Shown here one piece after another: positions 9,601-55,600 of a DNA stretch of 64,000 nt. The DNA is from Prunella strophiata (Eukaryota; Chordata; Aves; Passeriformes; Prunellidae): positions 1 to 64,000 of the forward strand of contig JAZBQD010000007.1 of assembly GCA_036583965.1 (NCBI GenBank), given 5' to 3'. The translations under genes and the position numbers were made by a program. The notes under the pieces are model-generated. The model did not search any database and was not told where the DNA came from. It worked only from the letters and a program-made list of their open reading frames with translations. The number at the start of each line of letters is the position of its first letter. Position 1 is the stretch's first letter.

Positions 9601-12600
9601 CAGAGAGCGACGGGCACAGTCCCCACCTGGCACCCCAAAATCGTGACACTGTCACCCCTGGGACCCTCAGTGTCCTGGGACCCCAAAATGTGACACTGTC
9701 ACCTCACAGACCCCAACCTGGGAGCAGGGAATGACCCGGGGACAGTCCCCACCTGGCACCCCAAAACGTGACACTGTCACCTGAGGGACCCTCAGTGTCC
9801 TGAGACCCCAAAATGTGACAGTGTCACCCCTGGGACCCTCAGTGTCCTGGGACCCCAAAATGTGACACTGTCACCTCAGAGACCCCAACATGCGAGCAGG
9901 GAGTGATGGGGGATTCCCCACCTGGAGACCCCCAAAAATGGGGTGTCAATGTTTCATGGGACCCCCAATGTCCCCTTGGGACCCCCACCCAAGGTCAGGG
10001 GGCATTCCCCACCTGGAGACCCCCAAATTGGGGTGTCAATGTCCCCCCAGGATCAGGGAATGATGGGTGGGATACCCCAGCTGGAGACCCCTGAAAATGG
10101 GGTGTCAGTGTCCCCTGGGACCCCCAATCTCCCCTTGGGACCCCCACCCAAGGTCAGGGGTGATTCCCCACCTGGAGACTCCCCAAAAAATTGGGTGACC
10201 CACCAGGATCAGGGAATGCTGGGGTGAATTCCCCACCCGGAGACCCCCAAACCGCTGTCCCCCCGCTGTCCCCCCGCTGTCCCCACGGTGTCCCCCCGCT
10301 GTCCCCCCTCTGTCCCCCCTCTGTCCCCACGGTGTCCCCCCGCTGTCCCCGCGGTGTCCCCGCACCTCGGAGCGGCGCGTCCCCGAAGAGCTGCTCCACG
10401 TGGGTGAGGATGAACTCCACCACGATGGACTGCACGCGCACCTCCATGAACGCTGCTGTGCCATTGAACCCCGAGGCCTCGATGTCCCTGGAGCTGGGGA
10501 CAGCGGGGACAGCAGGGTCACCATGGGGTGAGGGGACAGCGGGGACAGTGGGGTCACCTCGGAGTGAGGGGACAGCAGGGTCACCACACGGTGAGGGGAC
10601 AGCAGGGGACACACAGGGTCACCTCAGGGTGGAGGGTGACAGGGCTAGGGTTAAAGGGGTGACAGTGACAGGGCTGGCAGTGACAGAGCTGGTGTGACAG
10701 GGCTGATGGTGACAGGGCTGATGGTGACAGGGCTGATGGTGACAGGGCTGATGGTGACAGGGCTGATGGTGACAGGGCTGATGGTGACAGGGCTGATGGT
10801 GACAGGGCTGATGGTGACAGGGCTGATGGTGACAGGGCTGATGGTGACAGGGCTGATGGTGACAGGGCTGATGGTGACAGGGCTGATGGTGACAGGGCTG
10901 ATGGTGACAGGGCTGATGGTGACAGGGCTGATGGTGACAGGGCTGATGGTGACAGGGCTGATGGTGACAGGGCTGATGGTGACAGGGCTGATGGTGACAG
11001 GGCTGATGGTGACAGGGCTGATGGTGACGGCTGACAGTGATTGGGACGGACGGTGACAGTGACAAGTGACAATGGCAGGGCTGGCAGTGACCGGACTGAG
11101 GGTGACAGGCACAGGTGACAGGCACAGTTGACAGCGACAGGTGTCCCTCACCGCAGCAGGTTGGGGGCCCAGACGATGGCCAGGTTCCGCGCGTGCATGT
11201 TGGTGCGCGCACTGTGCGCGGCCATGCGCAGCAGGTGGCGCATCAGGAACTCCAGCGTCCTGCGACACCGGCGACACCTCAGCCCGCGCCACCCCTCCGG
11301 GGGACACCGCCGGGGCCACGGGGATGTCCCCAAACCCCCCCGTCACCTGTAGTGCGGCTCCGGCAGCTCCTTGAGCACCTCCTTGATCTTCACCAGCCGC
11401 GCCTCCTCCATCTGGGTGGCCACGGCGTCCTGCGGGCACAGCGCGGTGACGGGGCCGCCCGCCGCGCTGGGCACGCTCTGGGGACATTTGGGGACATTTG
11501 GGGACTCACGGCGAACTTGTCGTAGAGCTGGTAGGTGAGCAGGGGGTTGGGCAGCTCGCGGCAGTAGGCCTTGCACAGGGAGCTGACGCAGTGAACGTCC
11601 TGCAGGTAAACGTCCCGCGACAGGTCCGGGCTGCGCTGCGCCTCGAACTCCTGCCTGGGGTTTGGGATTTGGGGTTTGGGTTTGGGATTGGGGGTTTGGG
11701 ATCGAGATTGGGGGTTTGGGATCGAGATTGGGGGTTTGGGATCGAGATTGGGGGTTTGGGATTGGGGGTTTGGGATTGGGATTTGGGGAGTTTGGGGTTC
11801 GGGGTTTGAGAATATGGGATTGGGGATTGGGATTGGGATTGGGGTCCGGGCTGCGCTGCGCCTCGAACTCCTGCCTGGGGTTTGGGATTTGGGGTTTGGG
11901 ATTGGGATTTGGGGTTTGGGATCGAGATTGGGGGTTTGGGATCGAGATTGGGGGTTTGGGATTGGGATTTGGGGAGTTTGGGGTTCGGGGTTTGAGAATA
12001 TGGGATTGGGGATTGGGATTGGGGTCTGGGCTGCGCTGCGCCTCGAACTCCTGCCTGGGGTTTGGGATTGGGATTTGGGGAGTTTGGGGTTCGGGGTTTG
12101 AGAATATGGGATTGGGATTGGGATTGGGGTCTGGGCTGCGCTGCGCCTCGAACTCCTGCCTGGGGTTTGGGATTTGGGGTTTGGGGTTTGGGATTGGGGG
12201 TTTGGGATTGGGATTTGGGGTTTGGGGTTTGGGATTGGGGTCTGGGCTGCGCTGCGCCTCGGATCCCATCCCATCCCATCCCATCCCATCCCATCCCATC
12301 CCATCCCATCCCATCCCATCCCATCCCATCCCATCCCATCCCATCCCATCCCATCCCATCCCATCCCATCCCATCCCATCCCATCCCATCCCATCCCATC
12401 CCATCCCATCCCATCCCATCCCATCCCATCCCATCCCATCCCATCCCATCCCATCCCATCCCATCCCATCCCATCCCATCCCATCCCATCCCATCCCATC
12501 CCATCCCATCCCATCCCATCCCATCCCATCCCATCCCATCCCATCCCATCCCATCCCATCCCATCCCATCCCATCCCATCCCATCCCATCCCATCCCATC

Positions 12601-52600: not shown

Positions 52601-55600
52601 CCCCCCGTGTTTTGGGGTCCCTCCCACTCCCCCCCGTGTTTTGGGGTCCCTCCCACTCCCACCAGGATTTTGGGGTCCCTCCCACTCCCCCCCGTGTTTT
52701 GGGGTCCCTCCCACTCCCCCCCGTGTTTTGGGGTCCCTCCCACTCCCACCAGGATTTTGGGGTCCCTCCCACTCCCCCCCGTGTTTTGGGGTCCCTCCCA
52801 CTCCCACCAGGATTTTGGGGTCCCTCCCACTCCCCCCCGTGTTTTGGGGTCCCTCCCACTCCCCCCCGTGTTTTGGGGTCCCTCCCACTCCCACCAGGAT
52901 TTTGGGGTCCCTCCCACTCCCACCAGGATTTTGGGGTCCCTCCCACTCCCCCCCGTGTTTTGGGGTCCCTCCCACTCCCACCAGGATTTTGGGGTCCCTC
53001 CCACTCCCACCAGGATTTTGGGGTCCCTCCCACTCCCCCCCGTGTTTTGGGGTCCCTCCCACTCCCACCAGGATTTTGGGGTCCCTCCCACTCCCCCCCG
53101 TGTTTTGGGGTCCCTCCCACTCCCCCCCGTGTTTTGGGGTCCCTCCCCCTCCCCCCCGTGTTTTGGGGTCCCTCCCACTCCCCCCCGTGTTTTTGGGGTC
53201 CCTCCCACTCCCACCAGGATTTTGGGGTCCCTCCCACTCCCCCCCCGTGTTTTTGGGGTCCCTCCCACTCCCACCAGGATTTTGGGGTCCCTCCCACTCC
53301 CACCAGGTTTTTGGGGTCCCTCCCACTCCCGCCGTGGTTTTGGGCTCTCACCCGCGGGCATCTCCGCCAGGCGCCCCGAGATCTCGCGCAGCGCCTCCGC
53401 CCAGCGCGAGTTGGAGTCGGCCAGGAGGCAGCTGTGCAGCCCCATGTCCCGGAAGTACTCGGCCAGCGTGATCCCTGTCACACGTGTCACACGTGTGTCA
53501 CACGGCTGTCACATGTGTCACACACCTTCACACACCTTCAACAGCCAGGGACGCCCCCCCGCCTTGTCACACCCCCAGGAACAGCGTGATCCCGTCACAC
53601 TGTCACACTGGTCACACACCTGTCACCCCCCAGGGAAGCGGGCTCCTGTCACACAGGTTCACAGCCTTCACACACCTGTACACCCCAGGTGACAGCGTGA
53701 TCCCTGTCAACGTGTCACACATGTCACACTTGTCACACACATGTCACACCCCCAGGAACAGCGTGATCCCTGTCAACGTGTCACACTGTCACCTTGTGTC
53801 ACCATGGGACAGCCCTGCCACCCACCTCCATGGTCAGCTGGGGACACCAGTGTCACACTGTCACACACCTGTCAACCCCCAGGGGACAGTGTGATCCCTG
53901 TCACACGTGTCACACGTGTGTCACACTGTCACCTTGTGTCACCATGGGACAGCCCTGCCACCCACCTCCATGGTCAGCTGGGGACACCAGTGTCACACTG
54001 TCACCTTGTGTCACCATGGGACAGCCCTGCCACCCACCTCCATGGTCAGCTGGGGACACCAGTGTCACACTGTCACCTTGTGTCACCATGGGACAGCCCT
54101 GCCACCCACCTCCATGGTCAGCTGGGGACACCAGTGTCACACTGTCACCTTGTGTCACCATGGGACAGCCCTGCCACCCACCTCCATGGTCAGCTGGGGA
54201 CACCAGTGTCACACTGTCACCTTGTGTCACCATGGGACAGCCCTGCCACCCACCTCCATGGTCAGCTGGGGACACCAGTGTCACACTGTCACCTTGTGTC
54301 ACCATGGGACAGCCCTGCCACCCACCTCCATGGTCAGCTGGGGACACCAGTGTCACACTGTCACCTTGTGTCACCATGGGACAGCCCTGCCACCCACCTC
54401 CATGGTCAGCTGGGGACACCAGTGTCACACTGTCACCTTGTGTCACCATGGGACAGCCCTGCCACCCACCTCCATGGTCAGCTGGGGACACCAGTGTCAC
54501 ACTGTCACCTTGTGTCACCATGGGACAGCCCTGCCACCCACCTCCATGGTCAGCTGGGGACACCAGTGTCACACTGTCACCTTGTGTCACCATGGGACAG
54601 CCCTGCCACCCACCTCCATGGTCAGCTGGGGACACCAGTGTCACACTGTCACCTTGTGTCACCATGGGACAGCCCTGCCACCCACCTCCATGGTCAGCTG
54701 GGGACACCAGTGTCACACTGTCACCTTGTGTCACCATGGGACAGCCCTGCCACCCACCTCCATGGTCAGCTGGGGACACCAGTGTCACATTGTCACCTTG
54801 TGTCACCTCCCTGTGTCACCCCTGTGTCACCATGGGACAGCCCTGCCACCCACCTCCATGGTCAGCTGGGGACACCAGTGTCACACTGTCACCATGTGTC
54901 ACCATGGGACAGCCCTGTGTCACCATGGGACAGCCCTGTCACCCACCTCCATGGTCAGCTGGGGACACCAGTGTCACACTGTCACCTTGTGTCACCATGG
55001 GACAGCCCTGCCACCCACCTCCATGGTCAGCTGGGACATTCAGGTGGCATTTTGTTTCACCCGTCCTTCACCGATCCCTGTGTTCCACCCTCCCTTCCAT
55101 CCTCTGTCCTCCCATGCTGAGCTGGGGACACCTGTGTCACTGTCACTGCCTGTCACCCCCCTGCCACCCCGATGTCCCCCTACGTCCCCATGTCCTGCCA
55201 CGTCGCAGTGCCACCCCAATGTCCCCTGGATGTCCTGGTGTCCCGTGTGGCCGTGTCACCTCGGGGAAGTCTCAGAGGACTCTCCATGAACACCCATGTC
55301 ACTGTCACTGTCACTGCCATCCCCCTCTCCTAGTGCCACCCCAATGTCCCTCCACTGTCCCCATGTCCCAGTGCCACCCCGATGTCCCCCCATATCCCTG
55401 TGTCCCAAAATGTCCCAGTGCCACCCCGATGTCCCACGCCACATCCCGTGTCACCTCGGGAAAATCCTTGAAGATCCTCCATGCACACCCGTGTCACCGC
55501 CACCCCCCTGCCACCCCGATATCCCCCGTGTCCCGCCGTGTCGCAGTGCCACCCGGATGTCCCCGGATGTGGCGGTGTCCGGTGTCGCCGTGTCACCTCG

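Follow-up and report, generated by a model that had tools for sequence, protein, structure and literature searches.

How do introns come to hold repeated copies of the edges of their own exons? The question is raised by a 64,000-nucleotide stretch of DNA from Prunella strophiata (GenBank assembly GCA_036583965.1, contig JAZBQD010000007.1, positions 1 to 64,000 of the forward strand; hereafter the window), in which tandem arrays lie beside exons of an ARHGAP30-like gene, of two copies of NECTIN4 and of an ATP6V1A-like gene. An earlier note on this DNA claimed that array units next to an exon carry that exon's own edge with its splice acceptor or donor, and proposed a shared mechanism that starts at exon edges. 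Here we confirm the copied edges in all three genes. The phenomenon has already been published as exon stuttering, and these genes are further cases in another bird genome. Its best explanation is very probably local tandem duplication that spills over exon edges and is filtered by selection.

Exon edges are repeated in the adjacent introns

Gene models were drawn up manually on the minus strand, each splice boundary following GT-AG, and comprise 33 exons and 32 introns, of which three introns are partial: 8 exons in ARHGAP30, 8 in each of the NECTIN4 copies A and B, and 9 in the ATP6V1A-like gene. The screens cover these four gene copies of three genes and their 60 exon/intron junctions. The ATP6V1A-like model matches V-ATPase subunit A chains (E 9.4e-173), the best match of the NECTIN4 model is a nectin-4 chain (E 1.7e-23), and the remaining model contains a Pfam RhoGAP domain (E 2.6e-46); we take this gene to be ARHGAP30 rather than one encoding another RhoGAP protein. 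Tandem repeats, as called by Tandem Repeats Finder (TRF), cover 81% of intron bases and 4.4% of exon bases in the models. Across the first 264 kb of contig C546 (3.02 Mb), 8-kb windows range from 0.46 to 0.72 in guanine plus cytosine (GC) content and from 3 to 88% in TRF coverage.

We reused the settings of the published exon-stuttering screen (blastn-short, at least 20 bp and at least 42.1 bits). These returned 14 plus-strand matches between exons and their own adjacent introns, at 5 junctions in 5 of the 32 introns, and 13 of the 14 begin or finish no more than one base from the exon border. Within the window gene models, the same settings gave no match on the minus strand, in distal introns or in other genes; two matches linked NECTIN4 copies A and B. 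When 20 mononucleotide shuffles were passed through the screen, none produced a match (best 32.2 bits). A junction scan was run alongside, with a pattern of 12 exon nucleotides (nt) plus the splice dinucleotide, at most one mismatch, and NECTIN4 A against B left out. It found copies in the junction's own intron at 9 of the 60 junctions (22 copies in total), while only 1 of 397 exon-interior windows, used as a control, had a copy in the adjacent intron (Fisher p 6e-8, which is too small because the interior windows overlap one another). By both the interior control and the shuffles, exon edges in the window are therefore copied beyond chance.

The same scan detected no copy of these edges in the other introns of the window models, and every unit matches its own exon. 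The arrays are thus local and specific to their junctions, as claimed, and an origin as a mobile or dispersed repeat inserted beside the exons is exceedingly improbable; no point in its favour was found, and it was set aside after the cross-intron scans within the window. With a looser pattern (10 exon nt, at most one mismatch) there were 28 own copies and 9 matches in other introns. All 9 stem from junctions without own copies and none from the nine, so the shortest matches are partly due to chance.

Edge copying was seen at both ends of exons, with six acceptors (ARHGAP30 exon 3; NECTIN4 V in copies A and B; ATP6V1A-like exons t, w and y) and three donors (ATP6V1A-like r, w and x). The earlier count of at least nine junctions is therefore upheld, with the correction that the ATP6V1A-like gene contributes six rather than seven, the seventh being the edge of an exon that is missing from the window. 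At four of the nine (NECTIN4 A V, r, t and x) the copies are too short or too divergent for the published threshold, and these junctions rest on the junction scan and inspection. The copied exonic parts are short, as had been stated, and measure 10-49 nt rather than 12-45 bp (the y decoy at 48018 is left out of this range, an inserted base having cut its match to 1); copies are spaced 51-250 bp apart, and no exonic part exceeds 0.36 of the spacing between units. The features concerned are as follows.

11510..11654, minus strand: ARHGAP30-like exon x3, source of the array (GT-AG exon, RhoGAP domain)
11655..12262, minus strand: ARHGAP30 array, 3 full decoy acceptors (first exon-like base 11874, 12054, 12159), exonic part about 30 nt
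12239-12261, minus strand: ARHGAP30 partial edge copy without splice site
24160..24516, minus strand: NECTIN4 copy A V exon
24517..25119, minus strand: NECTIN4 A array, 4 V-exon decoy acceptors (24673, 24752, 24868, 25010), cut by a gap of 500 undetermined bases (500-N)
33790..34145, minus strand: NECTIN4 copy B V exon
34146..34934, minus strand: NECTIN4 B array, 4 decoy acceptors (34339, 34481, 34673, 34832)
near 34919, minus strand: NECTIN4 B partial edge copy without splice site
47550..47721, minus strand: ATP6V1A-like exon y
47722..48430, minus strand: exon y array, 4 decoy acceptors (47849, about 48018, 48144, 48294)
48505..48674, minus strand: exon x array, 3 decoy donors (48518, 48569, 48622), 53-bp unit, about 13 exon nt
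48675..48769, minus strand: ATP6V1A-like exon x
48942..49656, minus strand: exon w donor array, 4 decoy donors (48944, 49194, 49350, 49485), 41-49 exon nt
49657..49860, minus strand: ATP6V1A-like exon w, with edge copies from both ends
49861..50340, minus strand: exon w acceptor array, 3 decoy acceptors (50026, 50161, 50338), about 21 exon nt
53352..53474, minus strand: ATP6V1A-like exon t
53475..53899, minus strand: exon t decoy acceptors (53592 with CG for AG, 53703, 53769, 53897), 10-11 exon nt
near 53647, minus strand: additional divergent t-like site
55258..55471, minus strand: exon r array, two divergent decoy donors
55597..55759, minus strand: ATP6V1A-like exon r

The introns thus hold the ladders of decoy splice sites that had been described: 30 of the 31 listed decoys retain the dinucleotide (AG in 21 of 22 acceptors, GT in 9 of 9 donors), a figure biased upward because the search patterns contained it. 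Outside this list stand the partial copies at 12239-12261 and near 34919, the t-like site near 53647, and 16 edges of an exon s, described below. Such retention would suit a functional ladder, in which decoys persist because they regulate splicing or make it more diverse, as has been reported for IFI6 in humans. However, besides the bias in the figure, exon edges are depleted of repeats relative to introns (see below), which suggests that the copies are tolerated and not favoured, and we regard a functional ladder as highly improbable.

Read in the frame of ARHGAP30 exon 3, the array upstream of that exon (11510-12161) has no stop codon, so that splicing to a decoy acceptor would not necessarily terminate translation; the frame of the copied edges is a different one.

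Edge copies are absent from an ohnolog in ordinary DNA

A second ATP6V1A, the ohnolog of the window gene, lies in the same assembly (1.05 Gb, 838 contigs) on contig C227 (115 Mb). The two genes share the lengths of exons r, t, u, v, w, y and z, and x agrees if a one-base boundary shift is allowed (the ohnolog exon x donor was placed one base off in the scan, where the pattern still spans the junction). The 16 kb around the ohnolog has a GC content of 0.42 and a tandem-repeat coverage of 1%. Across the 9.6 kb of its intron that were scanned, none of its 18 junctions had edge copies, versus 6 of 16 in the ATP6V1A-like gene of the window (Fisher p 0.006). Because the ohnolog in ordinary DNA lacks them entirely at the junctions scanned, edge copying in ATP6V1A goes with the chromosomal setting.

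Within introns, repeats are sparsest next to the junctions

The excess of copies at junctions over exon interiors, together with the shortness of the exonic parts, speaks for a process initiated at the edge, in which the point where unique exon meets satellite breaks or slips and so seeds the arrays. However, TRF coverage within introns grows with distance from the junction, from 24% of bases at 1-10 bp to 60% at 31-50 bp and then 86% at 201-300 bp. The proportion of 14-mers that are copied in the adjacent intron behaves likewise, being 0.5% at 41-60 bp and 7% at 8-16 bp inside exons, 15% at the junction itself, and, on the intron side, 38% at 17-28 bp rising to 72% at 241-400 bp. Repetition therefore climbs from exon through junction to intron with no peak at the junction; exon edges are copied more than exon interiors and far less than intron bases. 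Since intron repeats thin out toward the edges instead of peaking there, neither measure bears out a shared mechanism starting there, and initiation at the edge is quite unlikely.

Random spill-over is by itself enough to enrich edges over interiors, as seen in a simple simulation with randomly placed tandem duplications and hand-chosen, unfitted parameters. Simulated junction values were 39-64% when overlap with exons was free, 22-45% when half of such duplications were rejected and 8-22% when 85% were rejected, so that the observed 15% fits strong filtering.

These data fit best with local tandem duplication spilling over exon edges under selection, which would proceed as follows. In GC-rich, repeat-saturated bird DNA, local tandem duplication would expand and rearrange introns, and an occasional duplicated unit would overlap an exon edge, copying 10-49 nt of exon and the splice site into the intron. 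As the anatomy of the arrays shows, the innermost copy stays attached to the remainder of the exon, such that the exon survives while a ladder of decoy sites forms. Units that fall within exons or upset splicing would, judging from the gradient, be purged by selection, and selection of this kind would leave edges repeated more than interiors and less than intron bases. The copying step itself may be slippage, repair or unequal recombination; microhomology at the breakpoints was inspected by eye only.

Several points weigh against this explanation. The simulation, unfitted and with parameters set by hand, counts bases, whereas the observed gradient counts 14-mers, and the values observed deeper in exons (0.5-2.8% at 17-60 bp) fall short of the 2-9% seen in the runs that reject 85% of overlaps, the strongest filter under which overlap was still allowed. 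The exonic parts are also shorter, relative to unit spacing, than expected from uniform breakpoints. Low copying deep in exons and short exonic parts together mean that breakpoints are not fully random, or that long exon parts are selected against. In addition, the ohnolog control covers a single gene out of three, and the NECTIN4 A and B junctions, counted as two among the nine, may belong to the same locus.

The NECTIN4 copies and the assembly

The NECTIN4 region occurs in two copies on either side of an assembly gap, and a second gap lies further along the window.

15340-25119 and 25620-36000: NECTIN4 region, copies A and B
25120..25619: 500-N assembly gap between the NECTIN4 copies
from 57484: second 500-N assembly gap

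Between A and B, only 2 mismatches occur over the 641 aligned columns of exons C2, e4, TM, e7 and e8, apart from one 15-bp repeat unit in e8. For exons V, C1 and e9 the mismatches number 9, 4 and 3, and the gap columns 17, 13 and 4, respectively. The five longest alignments with introns included (1,314-1,919 bp) are 78-87% identical. Because the gap separates the copies and cuts copy A, it is a serious possibility that they represent a falsely duplicated haplotype, one locus assembled twice, and the intron differences could be allelic. In that case the independent junctions would number eight plus the orphan edge described below, not nine plus one, and the cases would be less independent than the earlier note had it.

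More broadly, collapsed or misjoined repeats and haplotigs could have produced the ladders themselves. The two 500-N gaps, the near-identical NECTIN4 exons beside diverged introns, and the indels between the copies in exons V, C1 and e9 all speak for this, and the indels show that the assembly is imperfect. Nevertheless, an assembler seems an improbable source of ordered direct repeats of an exon's own edge, in diverged units, in three genes and at both exon ends, and the same structure in PHF8 was, as the published work reports, checked with raw nanopore reads (PMC12954441). An artefact is very unlikely as an account of the ladders. The NECTIN4 duplication, by contrast, is likely to be one, and the absence of the exon s body could be one too.

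The 15-bp repeat within coding exon e8 (18250-18318), one unit longer in A than in B, forms a length-variable coding array.

An orphan exon edge in the ATP6V1A-like gene

The source junctions of the nine arrays are all present and canonical; a tenth array repeats the edge of an exon whose body is missing from the window. In the C227 ohnolog, a 109-nt exon s lies between exons r and t. Its residues are present in 7 of 9 bird homologues, including those of jay (P0001), zebra finch (P0002) and Lonchura (P0003), and are absent from two homologue models, a garbled zebra finch model (P0008) and that of Nothocercus (P0104), which is also without exon t. The window keeps only the 5' edge of exon s with its upstream acceptor, in 16 copies (15 exact, 1 with one change); the edge length of 24 nt was set by match to the jay protein.

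53778..55035, minus strand: exon s orphan-edge array, mostly 72-bp units, 16 copies of the 5' edge
51565..51679, minus strand: ATP6V1A-like exon u

The body of exon s was not found in the window by protein and DNA comparison, and in the whole assembly, where the best candidates were scored, only the C227 ohnolog matched. Its loss would shift the reading frame, the exon being 109 nt long. Along the direction of transcription, two r-donor decoys are followed by 15 s edges, a t edge, one more s edge, four t edges (one divergent) and exon t. The t edge among s edges would be most simply explained by a deletion between two arrays and subsequent duplication across the scar. Tentatively, then, stuttering may have destroyed the exon that seeded it: the s and t arrays would have recombined through shared short motifs, removing the s body, and the scar would have been re-duplicated, leaving 16 orphan edges. 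We consider this sequence of events possible but rather less than probable. Against a real loss stand the position of exon q near a 500-N gap, the indels between NECTIN4 exon copies, and the chance that the assembly may have collapsed the region. If true, stuttering would here have led directly to gene loss of the kind that is typical of these chromosomes; unless it is an assembly fault, the array is a tangible candidate, open to checking, for a route by which stuttering might kill genes.

Other oddities of the ATP6V1A-like gene sit at 51565-51679, 51338-51401, 53352-53474 and 57023-57186 (exons q, t, u and v). Exon u has an in-frame TAA where 9 of 9 bird homologues have Tyr. Exon q contains an in-frame stop and no recognisable donor, its 3' end having been read directly with no donor-pattern search made. 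A Thr-to-Asn change is present in exon t, where all 7 homologues covering the site agree otherwise, and an Ile-to-Asn change in exon v, where 9 of 9 do. The public songbird models P0003 and P0008 of this gene appear to translate intron array sequence.

Other repeats in the window

Long arrays of 5-, 11- and 10-bp units lie at 12263-14027, 36600-37893 and 43907-45476, with 353, 117 and 157 copies, respectively, and 99-100% matches. Just past the second N gap, a 52-bp array (60266-60772) adjoins EF-hand coding sequence (60014-60190).

Comparison with known systems

Exon stuttering, or sequence stuttering, was described on chicken dot chromosomes by Hron et al. in February 2026 (PMC12954441). As set out in the main text of that article, direct tandem copies of the lateral part of an exon, with its donor or acceptor, lie in the adjacent intron; the source is at the exon border, the exonic copies are tens of bases long, the introns are full of tandem repeats, and the feature is missing from ohnologs in ordinary DNA. 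The window agrees in each of these respects, the last for one of the three genes. It differs in its genes, given that ARHGAP30, NECTIN and ATP6V1 have no occurrences in that main text (a statement that does not extend to its supplementary gene list), in being a non-chicken genome, its nearest protein relative being Aphelocoma coerulescens, and in its higher density: 5 of 32 introns reach the published threshold here, as against 190 of 5,572 introns left by curation on chicken dot chromosomes. A further difference is the exon body missing from the window; the article saw intact coding regions. By the article's own account, the link of stuttering to gene loss rests primarily on co-localization (PMC12954441), and the orphan s-edge array is a candidate for such a link if it is not an assembly fault. 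In the literature searched, no account of exon stuttering was found besides that article, and nothing was found joining NECTIN4 with avian microchromosomes. The present cases thus extend exon stuttering to a further bird genome and three of its genes, one of which has a matched control in its ohnolog, and the junction gradient provides a test that separates edge-initiated from spill-over models.

A minisatellite of IFI6 (6-16) is said to give multiple splice donor sites, a finding that reportedly goes back to Turri et al. 1995. The likeness (PMC4526556) lies in minisatellite repeat units acting as extra donor sites; there a single human gene is concerned and spliced products are reported, whereas here many junctions and both types of site are involved, in genomic sequence only. 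Internal tandem repeats also modify human genes in segmental duplications (PMC2812944), where minisatellites with units of about 30 bp at an exon-intron boundary may alter gene structure, some through cryptic splice sites. In those recent paralogs the repeats lengthen exons or introns or create introns, whereas in the window the source exons stay in place and the copies are intronic.

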